From Polytrichum commune (taxonomy: Eukaryota; Streptophyta; Polytrichopsida; Polytrichales; Polytrichaceae): a DNA stretch of 64,000 nt. The DNA is taken from the NCBI GenBank assembly GCA_950295325.1, contig OX485807.1, forward strand, positions 41,014,440 to 41,078,439, given 5' to 3'. Positions 2,441 through 64,000 of the stretch are shown here, piece by piece. A program made the translations under genes and the position numbers. Below the pieces are notes generated by a model, which saw only the letters and a list, made by a program, of their open reading frames with translations, searched no databases and had not been told where the DNA came from. Position 1 is the stretch's first letter. The number at the start of each line of letters is the position of its first letter.

Positions 2441-3622
2441 TAAGGGTAAGGTATTGCAACCCAAAAGTGGATTTAGGGAAGGTGCCCATGAATTCCGCAC
2501 TAAATTCCACCAGGCCAAAATTGAAATCCTTGAGGTATCCGGTGCAAACTACCCATTATGGCATTATACCTTCTACATTTTCATACAAACCAACCCATTC
2601 ATGTGAGGTAGGTTTAGCACCATCTTGGTTACATATTCTCTCACATAACAAGCCATAATGTTCCGCTAGCTTGATCTATAATTTATAATAAACCTCAACA
2701 AAGGAGAATTTAAAATGTACATCCTCCCATCTCAAAAATTCATTCCTACCAAGATCCTAGATATCTTGGGAATATCTCAAACCAATCTTGTACAAGATCA
2801 AGGCCCTAGCCATGGTGATCCCAATATACATGCCTTGGTACTCCATTTCCACCAAAGGTTAAATTATAAAATACCTTCCGGACATGAAGGATAGAGAAGA
2901 GTGGCCTTGCGCGCCATTACCTTCCACGACTGAGCAATATGGCTCCAAACTTTCGATCCACCTTTGACAAAGAAGTTGGGATAAAACAAGCAAAGAGAGG
3001 AAGGACCCATAGAGCCATGAGAAGACGGTTGCAATTGCATGACGCAATACCTTCATTTTTTTTTTGTAAATTCAACTATCTTGGTAGAAGAGCTTGAATT
3101 ATCCATTTGCTCATGAGAGGCTTGTGAGCCGAATTTTTGGCCGAAATAGTTAAACTACGGGCATATAGGAAAAGCCGGATGAAGTCTCATCCAACCTGAT
3201 GAAAATAGTTAACTATGGGCTAGGAAGGTAGTTAAACTACAGACGTGGGCTTAGGCGCCCCTAGTTGGTTACAAAAACTACCAATGTCTTCCCGGCCAAG
3301 CCAAGAGGGTTAGTGGGAGAGAGAGAAAGAGCTAGACATTCAATGAGCAATTTTGAGCGCAGAGTTAAACCATAGGCTTGTCTCCCTCGACACATATTGT
3401 GTGAGGATAATAGTTGAACTATTTTCTATTGAATTTGGGTAATCACCGCAGTGATTGCAGATTAACAATTCTTATTGAAGTACATTGTTGAACTGAATTC
3501 TAAGTTATATTGAATGGTTGAGTGTGGTCAAACTATCTTTTGTTTCCGATTGCATGAATGTAAGATTGAAAAACCATTGTCTATTGAGATGATTGCTATT
3601 GGCGAAGGTTGTAGTGTGAGAG

Positions 3623-3660
<38 letters not shown>

Positions 3661-5150
3661 GATACGGGTAAAACCTTGCGGATAGAGAATTGAATAGTCT
3701 CTGAGAAGACAAGAGATTATGAAATTGTGAGAGAGAAGGAAAACTTGAAGGATAGAACGGAAGAGGAAGGAGTGAAAATGCATGAAAAATTAGAGAATTA
3801 GTTCAGGAGCGAAGACTATTGTCGCTAGGAATTGAACATTGTGAAACAATCGTCCAAGTGTTACAACCCTTCTAAAGTTCAGCGTGTGGAAGCAAGAGAA
3901 CAAAGAGGGTTAACCTAAACAAAGAAGGATTCAAACTATTAGTGCAGAGTGATGGAGTGATCGCTACGTGAGAGGAAACATGGTGAAGCTATATGGTAGG
4001 AGAGAGAGAGAGAGAGAGGGAGATAGAGCTTGCCAAAGTGACAGAGGATAGAGAGAGAGAGAGAGTTTGTCAAAGGTGACAGAGGATAGAAAAAGACTAT
4101 TGTTGAACGCCAACAAAAAACAACCCCGAGAGAAGGAGTTGAAAGGCCAAGCGTCAGGTCGAGAGGAAACTATAGCTTATTGTTTTAGCCGGAGAGAGGT
4201 AGAGAGAAGAGAAAGAAGGAGCCATAGTAAATGGTTCAGCCGAGTATGATTTTAGCTAAAGTAGACACTATAGGCTGGTAGAAGTAAAATTTGTTGAGTA
4301 TGTTTAATAAGAGAGCCCCAATCGACTGATGTGATGAGGCAAAGACTTTGAGTTGTTGATTAGCGGTGGATTAGGGGAAGTAAGATTGATTAAATGATCT
4401 TAAGTTAAGATAAATTTTGGATTATCACGGAGATTTAGGCATAAGTTGTCCTAGACTTAAGTGGAGTTTTCTATTGTTACATAGTCTAGAAACTTGATCT
4501 TTGAGTATAATGTGTAAATTAACCGGATCAACTATTGTTTTGTATGTTACCCTGGTTGTTGTGGTTGCAGGTGGGGTAGGGTAATCAATATTATAACTTG
4601 ACTTTGATAATCGGTGTTAGTTGCATAGGTTGTGAGTAATGACTAGATCTTGGAATTAATAAACAAACACTTTGTCTTGTATTGAAGTTAACATTGACCA
4701 ATTAATGAAGGAATTGTTGTGATTTGGAGATGCATTGGCCAATGGTTACCAAAGACAATTGTGATACTCAAAGACCCAGTGTCCCCTTGTCCAGTGGGCA
4801 TCGGATCATTGGCATTACGAACGGACACTTTATTCACGCCGGCCCCTTGCTAAAAAAGGGACCGGAGTTTCTATCTATCTGTCTGATACTCAAAGATTAT
4901 TTTTCTACAATCTCATGACGAAATGAAAACTTATAGCCACTGACACACATACCCTATTGAATGAGAAATAATGAGATGAAACCTTGAGAGAAAGGAGAGT
5001 AAAAGATGAATAAGTGATGTTTAAGAGTGAAAATAGCAGCCCTATTGTTTGATTAATGAACTATAATGTGACAGATACCTATAATAAACACTAGTAAAGC
5101 CTTCCTTGAGAGTATGTACCCTAAGTTTTGGTTTATTTCAATCATAGCAA
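2441..5150. other. Non-coding stretch, purine-rich in part; no gene recognised
   Basis: I see no supportable gene. From about 3290 to 4230 the plus strand is purine-rich with many GAGAGA runs; the longest is listed separately, with shorter ones near 4001-4019 and 4050-4065. This could be an old retroelement, but no paired terminal repeats were found. Confidence 0.4.
3628..3658. repeat. (GA)n microsatellite
   Basis: An uninterrupted GA dinucleotide run of about 31 bp lies within the purine-rich stretch. Confidence 0.95.
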
Positions 5151-6743: not shown

Positions 6744-7947
6744 GGGGCGGTTTACACTATGGACCATGAAGTTGGACCAGGGCTCTGCAAGGCAGCTGAT
6801 TGGCTCTTGAAGTTGTCCCGGGACAACTTCGGTTTACACTAAGGAAAAAATGGCAGAGGGACCATGGAGGTTGAGGTCCCCAAAATATAATTTTTAAGGC
6901 CTAATAAATGCACTGACATGGTCCAACGGGTTTTGCGTTGAGAGAGGCAAGAGAGATGGTCTGGTAGGAAAAGGCAAGGGCCCATGTCAGAGAAATGTCA
7001 TTTCAAGAATGTTTTAATGAATCTACCTTTTATGTGCCTTAATTATATTATAGCCCATGAGACATACCAGCACTATCTTGCCCTACCCTTTAAACCCGCT
7101 TACACGTGTTTCATCAAACAACGCGGGACATCTAGAACTCAAGAATTCAAGTGCAGATTTGTTTTTTGGTCTACCAGCTGCAATGTTTGGAATTTGGAGG
7201 CGCGTAATATACCGTTGGAAAGGTCTTGAAAATACCTTTCCAACAGTATATTACACGCCCCAAAATGTTTAAAAACTACAGTTGCAAAAGAATAAAGAAA
7301 AATACATAGTCGTTTAGTGACTGTAGATCAGGGTGGTCAAAAGAAGCGCAATGGGAAATCTTCTAACATTAATTATCAAAGAATTGAAATTTAGTGTTGA
7401 GCAAGGTTGGGTGGTAACAACATTAGATATAATCAAACACTAAATATCCTATTTAGTGTAGTGAAACACAAGGTACATGTCACATGTACAATTGAAACGC
7501 TCATTTTCTTTTTGTAAAAATTGTTGTGAGAAGATTTGCAAGCCACATCTTCGACACATTTAACAAGAAGTGAAGATAGTTGAAGCCTAAGAGATGACAA
7601 GAGAATGATCAAACTTTAAGGCGAAAAGAAGAAAAAACTAATTGACAAGATAAGTGAAGGCATGTGTAGGCAAGTGAAGGCAAATTGAAGTCAACAAAAT
7701 GGTCAAATTTCATTTTTCCCCAAAACTGCCCTTTTTGGGCTTATATTAAAAAAATCAGCACATCCACTTCTTGCCGCATGGTCATTCTTCATGGTCCACA
7801 TTCGGTTTACACCTAGTGAAGGGCCCATGAACCATGAAAACTAATATTTTAGTAACTCGGACCATGGAAGTCATCCCATGAAGTCGTCCCACGCAAAATA
7901 GGCCTCTTACGTGGGACGACTTCATGGTCCATAGTGTAAACCACCCC
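6744..7947. mobile_element. Harbinger A, copy 1: non-autonomous, 1204 bp
   Basis: The ends are inverted repeats beginning GGGGCGGTTTACACTATGG and ending with the complement (GGTCCATAGTGTAAACC), flanked by TTA on both sides (6741-6743 and 7948-7950). A 3-bp TTA/TAA duplication with GGG-starting ends fits PIF/Harbinger. The first 240 bp and last 300 bp match the 4.4-kb coding element at 12276-16710. The middle has no transposase; it holds a 60-bp hairpin and a captured end of the CACTA-like family (about 7380-7471). It sits inside the CACTA-like element. Confidence 0.85.
7190..7268. repeat. Long hairpin within Harbinger A copy 1
   Basis: The arm GTAATATACCGTTGGAAAGG is followed by a short loop (CTTGAAAAT) and then its near-complement, with about one mismatch across the central 26 bp. 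The same hairpin is perfect over 36-bp arms in copy 3 (44330-44410). Confidence 0.85.
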
Positions 7948-12114: not shown

Positions 12115-12276
12115 ATGCTGGCCCCAATTCTCTTGCTCGTTTCATCCCATGCAAAGTCATGTATTAACTTAGGAGATGCATATAATTTATTTAGAGCTCC
12201 TTCTACGCAAAAACCACGAAAAGTCAAGCATAGAAAATTACACTTTTTCTTCTACATAACTGTACATTTTACTTAG
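12115..12276 (+). CDS. Possible small secreted peptide (53 aa)
   Basis: ATG at 12115 opens a 53-residue frame starting MLAPILLLVSSHAKSC, a short hydrophobic segment with a signal-peptide-like cleavage region, followed by a basic tail. The stop codon TAG is formed by the last two bases of the TTA duplication and the first base of the Harbinger element that begins at 12276. Without the insertion the frame would still stop two codons later. No family is recognised and the length is close to chance. Confidence 0.2.
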   Translation: MLAPILLLVSSHAKSCINLGDAYNLFRAPSTQKPRKVKHRKLHFFFYITVHFT

Positions 12277-12930
12277 GGTCAATTTACACTATGGACCATG
12301 AAGTTGTTCCATGGCGATCTAAGTGCGATGATTGGTTGTTGAAGTCGTCCCGGGACAACTTTGATTTACAATAGAGAAAAAATGGCAGAGGGACCATGGA
12401 GGTCGAGGTCCCCAAAATATAAAATTTAAAGCCTAATAAATGCACTGACATGGTCCAACGGGTTTTGCATTGAGAGAGGCAAGAGAGGTGGTCCGGTAGG
12501 CAAAGGCAGAAAAAAGAGTTTTTTAATGATTTTTAATGATTTTTTTGGGGGGTTGTGAGTGATATGGCGGCTATTCTTGATTACATAATAACGTTATAAT
12601 TCAAAAAACCAATATAACGGTATAATTCAAAAAATTAGTGTAACGCCTAGATCCCCAAAAGTAGGAAAATGTTAAATTAGCTAAAAACAATAAAACATTA
12701 AATGGACAATAAAATGGTAACATAAAATAATAGAACGTTAAATCAAAAGAAACCATGAGAACATTAACAATAATAAATAACATGAAGACAGTAAAAATAC
12801 AAAGTATAATAAACAATAAAACAATAAAACGTGAAATGAATTAATATCTGTCTATAAGCCTGTTGTATACAACATGCTCTCATTTCTCTTGTCAACCTGC
12901 TGTGACATTGTGTAGTAGTCTTAATTTTTT

Positions 12931-14352
12931 TTGCAAGAATGGAGGGATCCACTGCAGATGAAGAATCATAGGGAGTCACAAGAAAAATGGTCACAAAATT
13001 CGCAATGGATAGAATATATAAGAATTCCATTTTTTAGGAGTAAACAATCGTCCATTTCGAAAATGTTGCATGGCCTTATTTTGTTGTCTTCATCTTCTGT
13101 TGTATTTCGACACCCATCAATATTCAATTTTTTAGAAGGTCCACAAATGAATGGACAACCTGAAGCAGCAAGAACAACAACAACATTGACAACATGAACA
13201 CCAACAACAACAACAAGAATATCAACATGAGCAACAACAGGAGCAGTGACAACATGAACCACAAAACTTGTTCCAGAGAAGAAAAGTAACAAAAGAAGGA
13301 CCGAAGAAGATGAAAAAAATGAATAATAACATTATCGAAGTTGGTGAATCTGAAGAAGAGGAGGAATGAGAGGTGACGAGGATAAAGTGCAAGGATTTTG
13401 AAGTACATCATTTCATTGTCATTCGAGGCAAGATGGACAATTTTCTTTGCAAAAACCGCAAACAAACAAGGTAACTTTATTTATAAAAAAATTATGTTTT
13501 AGTTCCACAATAATTTCTTTTTAGACATTTTTTTTTGAATAAAAGGTAAGTTGAATGAGGTTGAATGCGGGAGTATAAGGGCATATGTAGATCGTATGAT
13601 GAGGCCGTAGAAGGCCTTGGCCCCCCCCTCTCCTCAAAACAGGGTCGGCCGCTGCCGCGGTGGCTTCGGGATTCACATTTCCTCCTATTCCGGCTCGCGC
13701 GCGTGTAAGGTATCGATCCCTTGACCTATCGATTCTAAAATTCCACGGGTCCAACTGGTTAACCCCTAATACCTTGTGCTTACTTCGTTTGACATGATTT
13801 ATAAAATCTATATTATGTGGTTAATATGTAAATACTATATTTTTATGTTTCATGTATGTTTTTACAATATCTTGGTGTCATGTGGATGTATAAATTGCAG
13901 ATCTACTTCATATTTGCAATCAAAGGTTTTAATCATTTTTTATTATTTTGTAAGAAAAAATATAAAAATATCCTGAAAGAATACAAGTCTGACAAGAGGG
14001 CAAATGAAGTTTCTGGTTCAGATAAAGTGCAAGAATGTAAATGGTTTCAAGAAATATATAAATGACATGGAATCAAAATAAATGTATCAAATCAAATTTT
14101 AGCAAGTGCAACGGAATCATTTGTTGAAGATGTTATTCCTTTTAAACCTAATACGGATTACTTATCAAATAACATTAGTTACTACATCAAAAATACGTAG
14201 CGTACAAGACAAAAAAACTCAAGACAGGATTAAAAGTTTGTTGAAACATGTTGTCAACAATTCCGGAGTTCTTCTTGCATCAATCCAAGAATCTGCCAAT
14301 TTTTTCAAAAACATGAAGAAAATTTTTGCTGCTCTCTTAGATAAATTCTAAA
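12931..14352 (+). pseudogene. Second ORF of Harbinger A (SANT/Myb-type protein expected), fragmented
   Basis: Plus-strand fragments read KMDNFLCKNRKQT near 13428-13470 and then, after an insertion, KSDKRANEVSGSDKVQECKW near 13985-14045, followed by SATESFVEDVIPFKPN. They lie upstream of and divergent from the transposase relic. PIF/Harbinger elements carry a second SANT/Myb-like protein that aids transposase entry and DNA binding, and position and character fit that role. No complete SANT repeat could be traced and the frame is broken repeatedly, so the assignment rests mainly on context. Confidence 0.45.
13521..13765 (-). mobile_element. Probable tRNA-derived SINE inside Harbinger A
   Basis: On the minus strand a head with GGTTAACCAGTTGGACCC (box A-like) is followed about 30 bp later by AAGGGATCGATACCTTAC (box B-like), then a GC-rich body, and it ends in TTTTATTC with an A-run near 13530. 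This layout is typical of tRNA-related SINEs. The GC-rich body contrasts with the AT-rich host element, and the insertion separates the two recognisable parts of the second ORF. I found no clear target duplication, so its limits are approximate. Confidence 0.5.
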
Positions 14353-14618
14353 TATTGCTTTATTATGTCACTATTTCTATCGCTATCTGTATCTAGTATA
14401 CCGGATCTATACCATATTTTGTACTACCACAAATTTTTTTCTAGTAAATTATGCATAACTGTGGCTTTCTTTCGAAGGTCATTCACCTTTTGATTTTCTC
14501 TTAATAAAAATAAATTTATTTCTACATCATTCATTTTGTTTGAAATTGGAGCATCAATCTTGGCCAAAAAAATTCTCTTCATTTCTGCAAGCCCTGCTAT
14601 TTCTCTCCGTAATTCGCC

Positions 14619-16391
14619 TTATTCTCGTAATTCTCCATATATGACTCTTCTAGTTAGTTTATTTTTTGCTTCTACAATCCAATATTCTTCAATACCTTCA
14701 CTATTCATAATACATAAATTATACATTATTATATATCTAGCTATAATATCTGGCATATTTCTCAATGATATCTTCAATCGCTTTATCATCAATCTCCATT
14801 TACCCTTCAATATACCAAATGTCCTTTCTACATACATTCTAGTTGAAGACTGTATGAAATTCCAATTTGCCTCTTTCCAGGACAATTCAGTCTTTCCACC
14901 CTTTATCGGACAGTACATCCATGGCCTCACTGGATCCGCAACGTCTTCGACAAGTTTGTAAGACTGGTATTTTTCCTATATACATGCCCATCCGATTTTC
15001 ATCACCTGGAATACGGCCCAATCGTGTAGACTTCTTGCCCATCTGAATTCATAATTCCAGAACATATAATATGGTCCAACAGTTCCTTGTAAAATTGCTG
15101 AGTGAAATGATATCCTACAGTAATAATTTTCTCCGCCAACTACCGGAGCTAAAACAAGATTATGCAAACCGTCTATCGTCCCTATAACATACAATATACC
15201 ATGCAATTTTTAGAACCTTCTAGTTAAAATCCTAAACTGTGATTCATCCGGAGCAGGGTTGTCTATCCCGACGTCATGACGGTGTCATGCCGTCATGACG
15301 TGTCGTGTCGTGACGGACCCCTCCGTCACGACACAATAGGGTCTATGTAGGGTCAACCTAGGGGGCAGCTAGTAGGGTGGGTAAAATACTTACCTTCTTG
15401 CCAAGGTGGCGTCCTATGTGGCAGAAAAGGCCGATGTGAACGTGGATATGCCTAGCGCCAGGTAAACCATTTTGCCATTCTGTTATCATTCTGTTAAAAT
15501 CAAAGTAGTGAAATATGACTAAGGAGTGTGTGGGGCGGACGGGGACCACCGGGGGAGGGCGGGGGGGGGGGGGGGGGAACGAGGCGGGAACGGGGGTGGG
15601 AAAGGGGGGTAGGGTGGGAACGGGGCGGGAACGAGGCGGACCGGGGGCGGACGGGGGCTAGTAATTTTTTCCCCACTTTACCTCTACTTTGTTGACATGT
15701 CATCACACGTGGACATCTTACATCCTACGTGTCCGAAATGGGGTAATGTAATTACACACAAAATTCAGTAAAATTCAAGTCCGTCAGGATAAAGACAGCA
15801 TCCGGCATAATGTCGTGACGGATACGTGTCGTGACGGCATGACATTATGCCGAGATTAGCCTCCGTCACGACACAATAGACAACCCTGATCCGGAGTTTG
15901 TATAAAAACTGGCTACAAACGCTTCCTAACAGTCCTACAAAATTTTCTCATTATTTTTGATAATGTGTTTTTATGAACTCCATACAAGTCTCCTATACTT
16001 CGTAGTCCATTGTCACTACCTAACCTATGCAATGACATTGCTACCTTTTCTTGCACTGGTATAGTCACTTTAAATCGGGTTTCTTCTTTCTTCAAATACG
16101 GCCCCAATCTCTCATACAACAATATGAAAGTATTATATGTCACTTGAGTTCGCTTCCTAAACTCTCTCTCTCTCCACAATCCCAACATCCGAACATCCAT
16201 TCTTGATTCCATATGCTTCTCTCTCTATGCGCCATATTTTCATACACCAAGTTCAATATTACAACCTTCTCCCACTCTCCTTGCAAAAGCATTGTTTGAA
16301 TGTCCACAACATGCTTTACAAGCATGTACAAACACATGTATAATCCTAAAAGCAAAACAACGCTCTTTTTCCTATCCTTCATTGCAACCAT
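14619..16391 (-). pseudogene. PIF/Harbinger DDE transposase relic, interrupted by a hAT element
   Basis: On the minus strand, 16391-15913 encodes the N-terminal half in two overlapping frames, a frameshift near 16140-16212 (RMLGLWREREF, ETRFKVTIPVQEKVAMSLHRL, IGDLYGVHKNTLSKIMRKFC). After the hAT insertion it continues at 15245: VIGTIDGLHN (first Asp), APVVGGENYYCRISFHSA, FWNYEF, ARSLHDW, LVEDVADPVRPWMYCP (second Asp), then RMYVERTFGILKGKWR (catalytic Glu) and NLCIMN. These are the DDE_Tnp_4 landmarks in order. Stops are TAG at 15913, TAA before the VIG block, and TAG before the second Asp block. Both the stops and the hAT insertion inactivate it. Confidence 0.88.
15254..15888. mobile_element. 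hAT-type non-autonomous element (635 bp) with perfect 8-bp duplication
   Basis: The ends are CAGGGTTGTCTAT and its complement ATAGACAACCCTG, flanked by ATCCGGAG on both sides (15246-15253 and 15889-15896). An 8-bp duplication with a CAGGG-starting end is diagnostic of hAT. Sub-terminal GTCGTGACGG-type repeats recur in both orientations, as expected of transposase binding sites. The middle (about 15530-15660) is extremely G-rich on the plus strand. It inserted into the Harbinger transposase; removing it and one ATCCGGAG rejoins the reading frame. Confidence 0.9.
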
Positions 16392-16861
16392 GCTTCCTGA
16401 AATTCAAAGTGAGTACAAGCAAAAAGAAGAAGTGAGGTCAAGACAAGACTATTGTAGCCAAGAAAATGGTCAAAGTTGATTTTTTTTTAAACTGCCTTTT
16501 TAGTGCATATATTAAAAACATCAGCACCCTCACTTTTTGCTCCAAGGTCTTCCTTCTTGGTCCATATTTGGTTTACACCTAGTGAGGGGCTCATGGCTCT
16601 CAAAACTATTTTTTATGAAATCGGACCATGAAAGTCAGACCATGAACTTGGACCATTGACAAACGCCATCTTCCATGGTCCGACTTCATGGTCCATAGTG
16701 TAAACCGGCCTTACTGAAGGAAAAACAAACAAAAAAAGAGTCAAAAAGCCTCTACCACGGTATTCCAGGAAATAAAGCAAACAACACCATCCAAACACCG
16801 AACATATAGTGATACAACAAACGAGGAGAACTGACCGCTAATTACACATGAACATATTGAG

Positions 16862-32381: not shown

Positions 32382-32799
32382 CACGGGGAGGTCACTCCAT
32401 TGTAAAGTTGAACAATCACGTGCGAACATTTTACATGTAAAAAATCTTATGTTTTATATAAAGCATCATCAAAATGAGTTAAAATTTACCAAATTTTTCT
32501 CATGAGTAGATATATAGGGTACCTATTACATAGTAAAAAATGATAACTAAATTTGATGATTTTTTTTTCATAAAACATACCATTTCTAACTAGAATGATG
32601 CATAATTGAACTAAAAGAATTATTACAAAGAATGAAGATGACTTAAAAATTCAAAAAATATACAAAAGATACTATCAATGATTATGTATATGTAGAAAAA
32701 TATTATAAATATTATAAATTATCCATGGCATGTAATATAGGGGTAGCAAACTTTGTTCGCACGTGGTGTTCAACTTGACAATGGAGTGACCTCCCCGTG
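32382..32799. mobile_element. TIR element (418 bp) with 45-bp inverted ends and 8-bp duplication
   Basis: The left end is CACGGGGAGGTCACTCCATT and the right end is its complement AATGGAGTGACCTCCCCGTG; with a gap the similarity extends inward to GCACGTG. GAAACAAG flanks both sides (32374-32381 and 32800-32807). The 8-bp duplication and C-starting end favour hAT. The interior is AT-rich and non-coding. The fragment GGGAGTGACCTCCCCG near 33691 is probably a scrap of the same family. Confidence 0.85.
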
Positions 32800-43232: not shown

Positions 43233-43722
43233 TTAGGGCCACTTCACACATGAGCCAAGAGCTGTGACCATGAAATTGTGAGAGCCGAAAAGAAAGTGTC
43301 CAAAGGCTGTCTCAACACACCTCCAAAATCATGTAGTGTGGTCACGGATCCTCAAGTGTAGTGTGAAGTCATATGTGACCGGACCATCAATCAAATGCTA
43401 TTTCAATGACTTTCTATTCACGTGGGTTCTTACACATAATAAAGTAGAATAAATCAATGGTTATGAGCATTCGGAGTGCCATGGTTTGCCGATTTTGTGT
43501 TAGACTTAGGGGCGGTTTACACTAAGAACCATGAAGTTGGACCAGGGCTCTGCAAGGCAGCTAATTGGCTCTTGAAGTTGACCCGGGACAACTTCGGTTT
43601 ACACTAAGGAAAAAATGGCAGAGGGACCATGGAGGTTGAGGTCCCCAAAAATATAATTTTTAAGACCTAATAAATGCACTGACATGGTCCAACGGGTTTT
43701 GCGGTGAGAGAGGCAAGAGAGG

Positions 43723-44085
43723 GGATAACATTACCCAACCCAATACTCTTAACTCCGGCGCGGAGTTCGATGCGGCTCCGATGCGGCTCCGGGGAGGTTC
43801 GGATGCCAGCTCCGGTGGGTTCGGGTGGGTTGGGGCAAAAATTGCCCCCTATTTTTTTGATTGGGTGGGGCCTTACTTGATCTCATAAGGGGCCTCCTAG
43901 AGTAATTTGGGGCCGTAGAACCCAAATTTAGCAAAAAAAAACCAAAAAAAATCATCAAGGGGCCAAAACGGGGAGGGCCAGAAAAATGGACCCACCGGAG
44001 CTGGCATCTAAACCTCCCCGGAGCCGCATCGGAGCCGCATCGAACTCCGCGCCGGAGTTAAGAGTATTGGGTTGGGTAATGTTAG
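43723..44085. mobile_element. Mutator-like MITE (363 bp) with about 95-bp inverted ends
   Basis: GGCAAGAGAGG flanks both sides (43712-43722 and 44086-44096); copy 1 of Harbinger A has only one such sequence, which gives the empty site. The arms start TAACATTACCCAACCCAATA and continue through TCCGGCGCGGAGTTCGATG to CCAGCTCCGGTGGG, with only two or three differences over about 95 bp. Long arms with a 9-11 bp duplication fit the Mutator superfamily. The GC-rich arms stand out from the AT-rich host element. The interior is about 170 bp and non-coding. Confidence 0.88.
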
Positions 44086-44329
44086 GGCAAGAGAGGTGGT
44101 CCGGTAGGAAAAGGCAAGGGTCCATGTCAAAGAAATACCATTTCAAGAATATTTTAATGAATCTACCTTTTATGTGCCTTAATTATATTATAGCCCATGA
44201 GACATACCTACACTACCTTGCCCTACCCCTTAAACCGGCTTACACGTGTTTCATCAAACAACGCGGGACATCTAGAACTCAAGAATTCAAGTGCAGATTT
44301 GTTTTTTTGGTCTACCAGCTGCAATGTTT

Positions 44330-44410
44330 GGAATTTGGGGGCGTGTAATATACCGTTGGAAAGGTCTTGAAAATACCTTTCCAACGGTATATTACACGCC
44401 CCCAAATTCC
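44330..44410. repeat. Perfect 36-bp-arm hairpin in Harbinger A copy 3
   Basis: The left arm 44330-44365 and right arm 44375-44410 are exact complements around a 9-nt loop (CTTGAAAAT). The arm contains GTAATATACCGTTGGAAAGG. Confidence 0.95.
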
Positions 44411-45330
44411 TAAAAAATACAGTTGCAAAAGAAAAAAACATAGTCGTTTAGTGACTGTAGATCAGGGTGGTCAAAAGAAGCGCAATGGGAAATCTTCTAA
44501 CATTAATTATCAAAGAATTGAAATTTAGTGTTGAGCAAGGTTGGATGGTAACAACATTAGATATAATCAAACACTAAATATCCTATTTAGTGTAGTGACA
44601 ACACAAGGTACATGTCACATGTAAATTACATTGAACATGTACAAATTGAATCGCTCATTTTTTTTTGTGAAAATTGTTGTGAGAAGATTTGCAAGCCACA
44701 TCTTCGACATATTTAACAAGAAGTGAAGACAGTTGAAGCCCAAGAGATAACAAGAGAATGATCAAACTTTAAGGCGAAAAGAAGAAAAAACTAAGTGACA
44801 AGATAAGTGAAGGCATGTGTAGGCAAGTGAAGGCAAATTGAAGTCAACAAAATGGTCAAACTTCATTTTTCCCAAAACTGCCCTTTTTGGGCTTATATTA
44901 AAAAAATCAGCACATCCACTTCTTGCCACATGGTCATTCCTCTTGGTCCACATTCGGTTTACACCTAGTGAGGGGCCCAACGGCTTTGTAAATCAATTTT
45001 TTAAGAACTCAGACCATGAAATGTAGACCATGAACTGGTACCGCAGAATAAGGCATCTTCCGTGGGACGAGTTCATGGTCTATGGTGTAAACCGCCCCTT
45101 ACCTCCAAGAGATGGTTTTTGAAAATAGTCCAAGTGACCATGAAACATGATCCATTTGATGCCATGTAGAATCCATGTAGACATTACATCCATCTTGCAT
45201 TCACATACTCCGTTGGTCCCTCAAGCGTAGTGTGAAGCGAACTTTGGACCGGCTCTGCCTTTTCCACCAATGAGAGTGTTGGAAGTGTACTGGTCACGGG
45301 CTCTCAGTCTCATGTGTGAAGTGGCCCTTA

Positions 45331-51500: not shown

Positions 51501-54500
51501 CGTCTTCCTCCCTGCTGATCTATCTACATCAATCTTTGTGATATGTCTTGGAAGAATGTTATGTAGATGAATGTATCGTCACTAGTTGGGCGCAACAATG
51601 CAGAGCACTGTAAGGGAGGCTACACACGTTTGAAGATGTCAGTTTTGAAAAGAAGATCAATGGTCTAAGGTGAAAGAATTTTGGCCTTGACGTGTGCCCT
51701 AACCTTGAGGAGCTTGGTTTCAAGGTTGGTCCCTCTTTTTTTGGTTAAAACTATCCGTTTTCAACTCCAATCCGAAATGAAGATGTTAAACCTTAAAAGC
51801 CGTCGTCTTGGACTAGAGTTTAAAACAGATGGCTATACCCAGTAAAAGAAAGACCAACCTTGAAACCAAACGCTCAAAGGTTAGGCACATATGAAGGCCA
51901 AAATTCTTTTACCTTGGCCCACCGATTTTCGAAACCAGCGATTTTGAATGTGTGTGACCTCCACATGACTCTTTAAATGAATCATCTATAACTTGGAAGG
52001 AGGTGGTATTTGAACATTGACTTACCCTGCCTCCTCCTCCGCCTCCTCACGTAGAGAACGGCGAGTAAACCCGCGATCAACACTACCAATGCGGCGGCCG
52101 CAACCGATAGACCCGCAACCAAACTCACTTGACCGGACGACGACGAGGGTGGAGAAGCTCCCGCAATCAAGACCTTCAGATAGGTGCTTCGGTTCCCAAC
52201 TTCCTGCGGATACCCACCATTAAACAGCGGGAACGACTTGATATAACACCGGCCATCGCGGAGCCAGTACACCGCCCCGGCGCACGTGCAATCCTTGATG
52301 CACGCCGCCTGGCAGTCCGCCTCGTTGGTTTTGAATTGGTCCTGGATGCGGTCGGCGAACGGGTAATCGATCTCACCCGCCTGCACCATTTGAAACGCGC
52401 TCGTGTTGAGGCTGCATTTGTTGTCGGGGATGGTGGTCACTGGTTTGCATCCCTTGAAGTGGTTGCCCGCGTCGATCCATGTGAAACCCGAGGTCGGGCA
52501 TGTACAGGAGGGTGTAGTAGGGTACGTCGGGTCATGGCCGCAGATTCCATAGGGTCCGCAGATCGCGAATGTTTCACACGGGTCGGCCACCCAATTGCCC
52601 TCTTCGTTCCACACCGTCGATTGCCATCGCCACATGCGCAATCCACCGTCGCTATCTAGGGTTACACGCCGCAACACTCCCGGCGCTTGCTCCGAGGTGT
52701 TCCCGATTGCCGGCGCCGAGTAATTGCCGATGTAGAAACTGCCGCTCGATTCGTCCAAAACTGCGTAACTCGCCGGGGAGGTATACTGGTAAGGGTAGAT
52801 TGTGTTGTTCCCGACGTTTGCGTAGGTGGACGACCACGACGAGGTGTTCCAGTTGGAGATGCTCTTCCCGGTCCAACTTAGGGCGAAGTTGATACTATTG
52901 TTGAGAGTTACCCAACCCGCTTGGTAGTAGCCGTCCGACCAGTCATCCGATTCCTTCCATGCCGAGAGCGAGAGGTTCATCGCCTCCGAAAAGTTCTGGC
53001 CGGGTAGCAATGTGTCTGTGGGCATGTCAAAGCTCTGCCACACGGTGGCGTTGGTCGCGTCGACGAGCACCAGGTTGCCGGAGTCTCGCAATTCTACCCC
53101 TGTAGCATTCAGCTGTGCCCCATATAAGCCGGTCATGCATGAGGTGCAGCGTGACATTCCTAATGTCAGAAATTTAGCTTGTCTATCATGGACATGACAT
53201 GAACAGAGAGTAATTAACATCAACACAGTCCACAAGTGCCGAATGAATGCAGGATCAACATCTCAACTAGTTCGTATAGTCACGTGCGATATTATGTATT
53301 CTGCAGCGGTTAAGTTAGATGCCAAGTGTCACATAGCTTCAAGATTTACTCAAACAGATTCTATCATATCTTATAGACATTCCCAATGTTCCCATCAGAT
53401 TCCACCGCACCATTACCCCCAATGAACCGCCCATATCCAAGGGATGAAGTGTCTCTCATTCAATCCAACCACGTCACGGTTGACGTCATCTCGCAAAGAA
53501 CAATCCACGACCAAACACACGAACCAAACAACGGAACACATTATCACCAACTTGACTCCCAAGATCCCTCCGTCTTTCAAAAGAGACCACCTCCGATATT
53601 TTACACAGTAGCATTCAGTTCATAGCCTAGCTCCGTAACCCATCTCGAGTTTCCCAATTATGAGCTCAGTCTACGGCCACGGGATGAAGTGTCTCTCATC
53701 CAATCCAACAACCTCATGGTTAATGTCATCCTGTCTATAACAACCCACGACCAAACACACAGCCAAACAACTGAACTCATCCATCATCAACTCCACCCCC
53801 AAGATCTCTCCGTCTGTTCAAACGAGACGCACCTCCGACATTACACAGTAGCTACGAACGGGGAGATCCGACCGGTTGATAGTTACAGATGGGCCGGTTG
53901 CGTTTGAGAAATAACCGGTTCAAATTCAAGGCTTTGGGCAAATCTCGATCATTTTACACGAATCTATAGTTTCAATATACCTTCAATCAGTAAAGTAAAC
54001 CGAAAGATATCAACATATAACCGGTTGGACTTGGAAACACTTGTATCTCGACCACTTTTGTCCTGAATCTCCCCGGACACTACACAGCTAGCATGCAGTC
54101 CATAGCCTAGCTCCGTAAACGCAATCTCGATTTTCCATTATGAGCTCAGTCTAGTAAACCCAAGGTTAAGGGTCATGAAGTGTCTCTCATAGGGTTTTGG
54201 TGACTTACTGGCCTATTGACAGATTGCCAGAGCGGTTGTTGAGATTGGGTGGAGTCCAGTAGCTGCAGAACTCCATTCTGGGAAACCTGGAAGGAAGCCG
54301 AGCTGCTCAATGTGACATCCCGGGCAGCTATCCACACAATCGTTCGGACTGAAGTCGGCAGCTGCGCATACCATATTGCGAGCGCGTACTGGTTCGACGA
54401 CCCGCTAGTTGTCGATTTGAAGAACCCGAACTTGAAGACACCCCCCGGGGAGGTTAGACCTTCATCGCTCGTCCCGAATGTACCCAACAACCCCAGGCTG

Positions 54501-62252: not shown

Positions 62253-62660
62253 GGGCGAACCAACCCATACACTCCTTCCTGCTGTTGGATGTCGAAACCC
62301 TTGTCTCCAAGGAACTACACAAAATATGATATATAGTGTTTGATTATATTTAGTGTTGTTACCACCCTACCATGCTCAACACTAATTTTCAATTCTTTGA
62401 CAATTAGTGTTAGACATAAAATGTGTTGCTACTTTCCCTATTGCCACCTCCCTTATTATATCTTCTTTTTTCATATCCTTACTAGCACTAAATTCAAACA
62501 TGTACCTTCCACACATTACCATGGTTGATATTTAGTGTTTGAGTTTACATTTAATGGTACTTATTTTCATAGGGTTAGTGATGTTTAGTGTAGGCATTTG
62601 TTTTTAGTGTCTCAAACACAAAATATCCTATTTTGTGTAGTGTATGGGTTGGTTCGCCCC
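62253..62660. mobile_element. Mini TIR element family E, copy 2, split by a CACTA-like element
   Basis: It starts GGGCGAACCAACCCATACAC and ends GTATGGGTTGGTTCGCCCC. The part before 62313 plus the part after 62642 reconstitutes the 83-bp element at 61906-61988 in reverse orientation, which confirms the insertion. Confidence 0.7.
62313..62642. mobile_element. CACTA-like non-autonomous element, intact copy (330 bp)
   Basis: The ends are ACTACACAAAATA and TATTTTGTGTAGTG with many sub-terminal TTTAGTGT repeats. Internal segments (CTCAACACTAA, ACATGTACCTTCCACA, CATTACCATGGTTGATATTT) are the reverse complement of the element at 6421-8020. No coding capacity. Confidence 0.7.
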
Positions 62661-63296: not shown

Positions 63297-63389
63297 GGGG
63301 CGGTTTCCACTATGGACCATGAAGTTGGACCAGGGCTCTGCGAGGCAGCTGATTGGCTCTTGAAGTTGTCCCGGGACAACTTCGGTTTA
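63297..63389. mobile_element. Harbinger A, copy 4: truncated left end
   Basis: TTA (63294-63296) is followed by GGGGCGGTTTCCACTATGG and the first 90 bp of Harbinger A through CCGGGACAACTTCGGTTTA. It is then cut off by another TIR element and does not resume after it. Confidence 0.8.
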
Positions 63390-63702
63390 AGGTAGAGGGG
63401 CCCTTTCCCGCTCGAATTTCAGATTGGCATGTTCATTGGGGAGTTATTAAGGGGGAATCAATCTTGGAAGATGTGCAAAGTACATTGGAAATTGAACCAA
63501 TTGGAATAATTACTTTTAGATTAATATTGAATTAGTTATGAATTTTGGAAGGAGAACTCATAGGGGTACCCAAAACCACTCACCCCAAAAATGTACACCA
63601 TGATTACATAGAAATTTGAGGTTGGAAGCTATAATGTACCTCTTGTTTGGATAGGTCTAGTGAGCGGTTTAAGGACCCGAGTGGGAAAGGGCCCCTCTAC
63701 CT
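63390..63702. mobile_element. TA-flanked TIR element (AGGTAGA type 2), 313 bp
   Basis: The ends AGGTAGAGGGGCCCTTTCCC and GGGAAAGGGCCCCTCTACCT are exact complements, with TA on both sides (63388-63389 and 63703-63704). Inward the arms remain partly complementary (GCTCGAA against GACCCGAG). Non-coding. The AGGTAGA start and TA duplication resemble the element at 60875-61488. Confidence 0.8.
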
Positions 63703-63704
63703 TA

Positions 63705-64000
63705 GAGCATCCCCACTAGCCCGGGCATAATGGCCTCGGTGGCAGCCCTGGCACAGTGTGGGATGCCCGGCACATCCCATGAGGCCCACTAGCCCCGGTA
63801 CGTACCGGCTTGCAGACCCGCTCTGAGGCCGACCCCCGCCCGGGATAAGCAGGCCCCGAAGCCCTGCCCGTGATTAGATGCCCTGCCCGAGAATATATTT
63901 TTTGCCCGGTTTCACTGCACGATTTTTATTGCCCCGCCCGGGAATGAAATAAAACACTACACTAATACAAGATAATTAGCAAATCCAATTCATGTGGGGG
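63705..64000. other. Start of another GC-rich repeat, cut by the window edge
   Basis: GAGCATCCCCACTAGCCCGG and many GCCCGG/GCCCCG blocks follow directly after the TA-flanked element. A GAGCATCCCCA start is common for plant MITE ends. The partner end lies outside the window. Confidence 0.4.

Follow-up and report, generated by a model that had tools for sequence, protein, structure and literature searches.

Probable recurrent exchange of ends in a PIF/Harbinger transposon family of Polytrichum commune

Here, we describe transposable elements in a 64-kb stretch of the Polytrichum commune genome (contig OX485807.1, positions 41,014,440 to 41,078,439; hereafter, the window), which is C5:41014440-41078439 in the 408-Mb, 64-contig assembly that was searched. 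The window holds a decayed coding element (P), two shorter non-coding elements (A and B) and a truncated end (D; Table 1). Judged from their sequences, A, B and P all fall within one PIF/Harbinger family with shared ends. Its coding copies probably form three lineages or more (X, Y and Z), and P is assigned to X. The family, with its miniature inverted-repeat transposable elements (MITEs), is in itself ordinary; of more interest is the exchange of ends. With a probability of roughly 0.8, lineages of this family have recurrently exchanged ends by homologous recombination, which would have renewed the mobility of the copies concerned.

Left and right ends point to different lineages

The left end of A is X-like (a type that we call A-left): over 250 bp, it is 90% identical to X coding copies and 82-83% to Y and Z. 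Its right end is 97-99% identical to Z, 75-79% to X and 79-82% to Y, with similar values over the right 140 bp (98.6% to Z, 78-79% to X and Y) and the last 180 bp (97% to Z, 77% to P, 75-82% to X and Y). Between the two lies a segment related to Y, which in the windows from -340 to -170, counted from the right end, is 88.6-91.2% identical to the Y copy L051, 66-83% to Z and 65-75% to the X-ended body L033; A positions 869-1205 are 83% identical to Y. By these comparisons, A is a three-part mosaic of an X-like left part, a Y-related segment and a Z tip. The right end of B is of Y type, with 96.4% identity to Y in the 140-bp typing and, over the last 180 bp, 96% to Y, 79% to P and 77-82% to X and Z.

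The interior of A (A positions ~280-870, ~590 bp) has no match in the 26 coding loci compared (L065-L072 lay outside this comparison), which match A at its ends only, its interior not being collinear. It contains a hairpin (~7192-7266) and, at 7362-7462, a piece of another MITE, seen more fully at 62314-62641. There it stands as a separate MITE-like repeat with CTACAC...GTGTAG ends; A sits in one copy of this repeat and carries part of it inside, and the related copy L023 retains far more of it. Since a piece of this repeat lies within A, the interior is, as far as its sequence tells, at least partly another MITE. The borders of A are fixed by a paralogous empty site on the minus strand (~62370-62420), which carries a single TTA. 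Together with A, five further copies read are 98.9-100% identical pairwise.

A preliminary description of the window had taken A and B for plain deletion derivatives of P. Alignment of the three copies, which it had proposed, bears out the shared ends: P and A share 236 bp on the left (87%) and 259 bp on the right (78%), P and B share 219 bp (84%) plus 31 bp past a nested insert on the left and 267 bp (79%) on the right, and the stretches common to A and B are 97% and 91% identical. These lengths are close to the outer 240 and 300 bp described, and A and B lack genes, as stated. The size given for both, 1.2 kb, is right for A; B measures 1590 bp and comes to about 1.2 kb only without its 363-bp nested element. 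Descent from P itself is rejected by the right-end identities, by the typing of ends and by conflicting left and right trees, and simple deletion by an interior unmatched in the 26 coding loci compared, joined to Z- and Y-type right ends.

The same body occurs with all three right ends. Copies L023, L024, L026, L027 and L033 have X-type right ends (90-94% over 140 bp), and eight further B-type copies (L073-L080), chosen where exact Y ends coincide with A-like matches, have right ends 94-98% identical to Y. In a tree of the left 250 bp built from 51 chosen rows, all of the 1.1-1.2-kb elements included group with X (support 100/100). In the tree of the right 125 bp of the same rows, Y- and Z-ended copies split from X (97/96), with a Z clade (100/99) and a Y clade (86/89). 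The starred branches of the interior tree (31 rows) can be explained only if the Z end was gained or lost twice or more, and the fewest label changes overall are four.

Diagnostic alignment columns place the switches at differing points. X gives way to Z between -191 and -184 in L015, L030, L031, L032 and L037, and between -128 and -119 in L029 and L036; Y gives way to Z between -173 and -157 in A, L013, L021, L041 and L046-L048; and X gives way to Y between -184 and -178 in the inner element of L044. Of 17 Z-ended copies with A-left ends, 14 entered a permutation test and yielded p values of 0.0005-0.0025; the omitted ones were L044, which was treated apart, and the near copies L049 and L050. 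These analyses used the inner part of L044 for its own right end only and excluded L024 and L009. The left end has probably been exchanged too, because L081 combines the interior of A with an X-type left segment (positions 30-140, 95.5% identical to L001 and 81% to A).

Ends, transposase and target sites of the family

A 22-base core of the terminal inverted repeat (TIR) has 2019 and 1980 matches in the genome with at most two mismatches and none for a reversed control; with 3999 matches against 0, chance likeness of the ends is ruled out. We read 34 coding loci whose transposases are related (L001-L012, L051-L064 and L065-L072). In 26 of them, the transposase lies between both family ends (7/12, 12/14 and 7/8, respectively), and for this reason the idea that ends and transposase are merely adjacent, named beforehand as the refutation of a single element, fails. 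At least one end is missing, nested or beyond the stretch read in L004, L007, L008, L011, L012 and L066. The transposases of L063 and L064, with frames open over 475 and 518 residues, come from more remote branches of Harbinger, and no ends of this family were found around them. L002 and L003 probably represent a single locus present twice, as their match tables are identical and C26 is a 36-kb contig.

The L051 transposase matches DDE_Tnp_4 across the full profile (2e-26), and we take D202-D278-E317 to be its putative catalytic triad. ORF1 of L051 matches Myb_DNA-bind_4 at 7.6e-05 with 23.5 bits, below the Pfam cut-off of 27. A PDB search with the transposase gave no credible relative (best E=0.52). 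A, B and the 445-496-bp classes have the features of Tourist-like MITEs, being non-coding, present in many copies and bounded by Harbinger ends and duplications; a length of 1.2 kb is long for MITEs.

The 3-bp flanks are identical in 64 of 73 paired loci (TTA 29, TAA 25, TCA 8, TGA 2), so that TCA and TGA go beyond the published TAA/TTA target set. The preference extends to C at -1 (40/64) and G at +1 (42/64), and an extended target preference of PIF/Harbinger elements is stated in a passage of PMC2836001. TIRs of X mostly begin with GGGCC, some with GGGTC or GGGTT, and those of Y and Z begin with GGGGC, one base from the consensus GG(G/C)CC tabulated in PMC4423477. Flanks are unequal at nine of the 73 paired loci. 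Five of these differ at the middle base alone, namely L057 (TGA/TCA), L070 (TTA/TAA), L071 (TAA/TTA), L082 (TTA/TAA) and L031 (TCA/TTA), and four of the five pairs are reverse complements; mismatch repair of a 3-nt overhang, or recombination between copies, may account for them.

Coding lineages

Lineage X (P and L001-L012) has a median pairwise identity of 83.0% in the four copies compared. The longest transposase-piece frame in L001-L012 has 234 residues, so no copy of X among those read is intact. The 11 copies of lineage Y (L051-L061) have a median identity of 99.3%, and the transposase frame is uninterrupted in eight of them (468 codons in seven, 481 in L060; 464-477 residues from the first Met) and broken in L053, L059 and L061. 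Two older relatives of Y, L071 and L072, are 93-95% identical to L051 and have broken transposases. Lineage Z (L062 and L065-L070) has a median identity of 94.4% (six full copies), and its transposase is broken in all seven copies read, all shorter than that of Y, with a longest frame of 358 residues (L066). The search for an intact copy that had been suggested for this family thus led to an open-frame lineage, Y, and to none in the lineage of P among the copies read.

Y and Z are 99% identical over the first 148 columns of the left end (90-100% per 30-bp window) and 47-86% in windows beyond it. Taken in windows of 150 columns, identity from column 2100 on is 71-86%, with 91% over the last 35 bp, and the rest of the left half is less alike. 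Because the first 150 bp are so alike and later windows are not, the coding masters may also exchange ends among themselves. The odd left end of L071 was considered as a further exchange and rejected, as it reflects a 58-bp deletion between direct repeats.

Non-coding classes and deletion derivatives

Two samples were drawn to survey non-coding copies. The C1 sample comprises all 32 convergent pairs less than 2 kb apart (L013-L044) among the first 100 exact TIR matches; it is blind to Y right ends, which have another TIR core, and exact matching favours young copies. It contains 15 Z/Z elements, 11 with A-left and Z right ends (including the composite L044), five with A-left and X right ends, and one X/X element. 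The Z/Z elements measure 445-446, 481-496 or 1002 bp. Among the short elements, L018 (445 bp) joins positions 1-268 of L062 to 3326-3506 by a clean internal deletion, L042 (1002 bp) joins 1-738 of L062 to 3254-3504, and L017 (371 bp) joins 1-278 of L001 to 3705-3780. By these junctions, the idea of deletion derivatives is right for the 371-, 445- and 1002-bp classes and wrong for A and B.

The C2 sample comprises 10 X-right and 10 Z-right places. The former are the 11 exact ones listed on C2 less C2:65682676, and the latter are the first 11 listed there less C2:8737030, which was already known as A-like; right tips and right duplications were left out of use. A left tip was found in 16 of the 20, with none within reach in L087, L092, L093 and L100; the left end of L085 is untypable, and that of L090 is partly lost and still counted. 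Seven of the eight complete X-right elements have the A body. The eight complete Z-right elements include four Z/Z elements, two with A-left ends and the body, and two of ~500 bp with a diverged left end (L095 and L102). In the latter, the left end is ~68% identical to X, Y, Z and A and the right end 90-96% to Z, and they are possibly another body that took up a Z end. Taken together, these results uphold the earlier link between MITE-like copies and a source type as far as one end-sharing Harbinger family is concerned, and deny it for P as the source of A and B.

Origin and effect of the exchange

All 28 A-left copies that end in Y or Z on the right have G at base 4 of the left TIR (26 typed first, 2 added from the C2 sample), compared with one of the 12 X-ended ones (5 and 7, respectively). 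Median pairwise identity is 88.6 for A-left/X-right copies (four compared), 95.8 for A-left/Y (eight), 97.0 for A-left copies with a direct switch to Z (six), 95.1 for A-like copies of 1222 bp (three) and 99.3 for the A class (six). On these medians, copies with exchanged ends are younger (95-99%) than the rest (89%).

We propose that a non-coding family of ~1.1-1.2 kb arose with X-like ends enclosing a foreign interior, partly of other MITEs. As the sequences show, its right end was later swapped in register for a Y or Z end, repeatedly and at differing switch points. The switches lie in or beside stretches that are alike between the lineages compared, which suggests ectopic homologous repair, that is, gene conversion or strand switching during post-excision gap repair. 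The Z/Z MITEs are possible donors: of the three intervals in which a switch to Z occurs, two fall within their right 181-186 bp, which also extend to the edge of the remaining one. Selection would then have favoured ends accepted by a working transposase, and exchange would have returned an old body to a transposase that still worked, most likely that of Y or Z. We infer such renewed mobility because the differing TIR base changed with the right end and because the exchanged copies are younger.

Several observations weigh against this proposal. Both 51-row trees have unsettled bootstraps (0.965 and 0.983). Permutation is weak for B-type copies within the last 300 bp (p 0.009-0.10 in nine copies, above 0.05 in five), since little X sequence remains within the 300 bp compared, and the case for exchange in these copies therefore rests on trees and identity. 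Upstream of -173, the multiple alignment mixes Y and non-Y letters, about half each, in the segment of A and B whose likeness to Y is clear in pairwise windows only. The tip association has an exception (L084), its copies are not phylogenetically independent, and L085, an uncounted X-ended element without the body, also has G. The first sample was drawn through exact TIR matches and is biased to young copies, all Z coding copies read are broken, and a coding lineage outside the sample may already have combined the A-left end with a right end of Z or Y type.

The exchange could be real and yet neutral, young copies showing it simply because Z and Y donor sequence is abundant. Conversion tends to track donor number, and right-end 42-mers with at most two mismatches are commonest for Z in the genome (513, against 371 for X and 142 for Y; controls 0). 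This is a serious possibility, although rather short of an even chance, as the tip base changes together with the right end and the diverged left ends of L095 and L102 are likewise paired with a Z right end and a G tip.

Macrotransposition, in which neighbouring elements are moved by their outer ends and the middle is lost to leave two unlike ends, has a published precedent in AgaP2-P12MITE (Quesneville 2006; PMC1562414, in part), and composite or doubled elements (L044, L009 and L024) exist here. We find it very improbable for A and B, given that the switches are in register within homologous sequence and that one body occurs with three right ends; moreover, the outer duplications of L044 differ (TTA/TAA), so this composite either arose by recombination or was not transposed in one piece. 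Descent without exchange from a lost coding lineage, one that paired the A-left end with a right end like that of Z or Y, would agree with the lack of A-left ends among coding copies with both ends read, and with the A-left copy L033, whose left segment (30-140) reaches no more than 71-84% identity to coding copies of X. A single lineage cannot, however, yield three right ends on a body that shares the same pieces of other MITEs, nor switch points that vary among copies, and we regard this origin as very improbable. Finally, plain internal deletion from P-like elements, which the shared ends and real derivatives elsewhere (L018 and L042 from Z, L017 and L082 from X) might suggest, deserves the least credence of all, in view of the unmatched interior and of right ends that are Z or Y rather than X.

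Other features of the window

Table 1. Elements of the family in the window and features nested in them (positions within the window).
Feature	Position	Strand	Characteristics
P, decayed coding Harbinger element, lineage X	12276-16710 (4435 bp)	.	Both ends typed X
P target duplications	12273-12275 and 16711-16713		TTA, identical on both sides
P left TIR	12276-12314	+	Inverted-repeat search
P right TIR	16673-16710	-	Inverted-repeat search
P ORF1 relic, putatively Myb/SANT-like	12939-14351 (limits approximate)	+	With stops
P transposase relic	14619-16224	-	Pieces 15913-16224, 14976-15209, 14619-14975
MITE nested in P transposase relic, presumably hAT-type	15254-15888 (635 bp)		Perfect 8-bp duplication ATCCGGAG
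A, non-coding mosaic element	6744-7947	.	TTA each side
A left end, X-like (A-left)	6744-7023	+	250-bp identities, left tree
A interior	7024-7611	+	No match in 26 coding copies compared
A subterminal segment, Y-related	7612-7775	+	Windows -340 to -170
A right end, Z-type	7791-7947	+	Y-to-Z switch between -173 and -157 from end
B, A body with Y-type right end	43509-45098 (1590 bp)	.	TTA each side
Element nested in B	43723-44085 (363 bp)		Long inverted repeats, 11-bp duplication GGCAAGAGAGG
B right end, Y-type	44762-45098 (start approximate)	+	92.3-100% to L051, windows -340 to end
D, truncated left end of same family	63297-63389	+	97% to A over 99 bp including flank

The matching inverted ends, TTA duplication and DDE transposase relic first reported for P were all recovered. 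A 41-nt inverted repeat with 83% complementarity holds both ends. The transposase is disrupted by a nested element and stop codons, three of them in the stretch matched; Pfam DDE_Tnp_4 covers the piece at 14619-14975 on the minus strand (E=1.8e-10, profile positions 85-158 only), and the Pfam search gave no DDE match for the other two pieces. ORF1 has a weak match to Myb_DNA-bind_4 at 13832-14065 (E=0.012, under the Pfam cut-off). The two genes converge, with ORF1 at the left on the plus strand and the transposase at the right on the minus strand, so that the "divergent second ORF" of the first report is divergent in sequence and not in orientation.

The nested element in the transposase relic of P, which we take to be of hAT type from its 8-bp duplication and CAGGG tip, recurs, at 84-93% identity, in 27 more of the 40 candidates that were scored, and there are other coding copies of the family that lack it. 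Within the ORF1 region, 13603-13770 is presumably a stretch resembling a tRNA-derived short interspersed element (SINE), its boxes being judged by eye; it looks old, since P aligns with L001 without a break across it. ARAGORN found no tRNA within the window. The element nested in B is presumably Mutator-like, given its 11-bp duplication. An inverted-repeat element with AGGTAGAGGGGCCC ends (63390-63706) directly abuts D, whose sequence does not seem to resume beyond it. Further long inverted repeats, by their look other DNA transposons or foldbacks, lie at 39729-39823/42650-42744, 23485-23527/26030-26072, 32382-32799 and 51652-51930.

Comparison with known systems

The coding copies resemble Ping/Pong with mPing of rice and MtPH of Medicago in their DDE_Tnp_4 transposase, putatively Myb-like ORF1 and 3-bp duplications, and the rice and Medicago PIF/Harbinger systems with their Tourist-like MITEs also share the extended target preference and end-sharing non-coding copies, according to sections of PMC2836001, which also record that mPing is mobilised by both Ping and Pong proteins. 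In contrast to these systems, the body persists here while ends swap between lineages. The nearest precedent found is AgaP2-P12MITE of the Anopheles gambiae P elements, which, in the parts of PMC1562414 concerned, has two ends from two master subfamilies and belongs to MITEs whose interiors show no detected similarity to the masters. It differs in belonging to another superfamily and in being explained by macrotransposition of neighbours, whereas in the family described here a single body carries in-register switches that recur in many copies and lie in layers (X-like left, Y segment, Z tip).

For a rice DNA transposon family, sections of PMC4423477 describe six small copies made of TIRs and an unrelated interior, and no end exchange is described in them. 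The TIME-made mosaic non-autonomous transposons of Pseudomonas share the name mosaic and differ in being bacterial Tn3-family elements (PMC4133298, in part). In the open-access literature on chimeric or exchanged MITE ends, as far as its accessible portions go, no further MITE with exchanged ends was noticed; an open-access search with the TIR letters found no paper, and the portions of a coral MITE paper at hand (PMC2872659) contain no chimeric or exchanged-end term outside one methods sentence.

Implications for MITE persistence

How MITEs arise and how they persist after the death of their master is an open question. The present series addresses it on a single body, where the X-ended copies are the older ones and are followed by those with Y and Z ends and finally by the 99%-identical A class. 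As this series stands beside a recently amplified lineage with open frames, the idea of renewal is testable. We tentatively suggest, at slightly under even odds, that MITE families outlive their master by serial end replacement, taking the termini of whichever autonomous lineage currently works. If this is true, ends and body have separate histories, and the ancestry of a MITE is not to be read from a tree of its ends. The series is also a caution against assigning MITEs to masters on similarity of ends alone. End exchange would be a possible way in which such parasites of parasites stay mobile.

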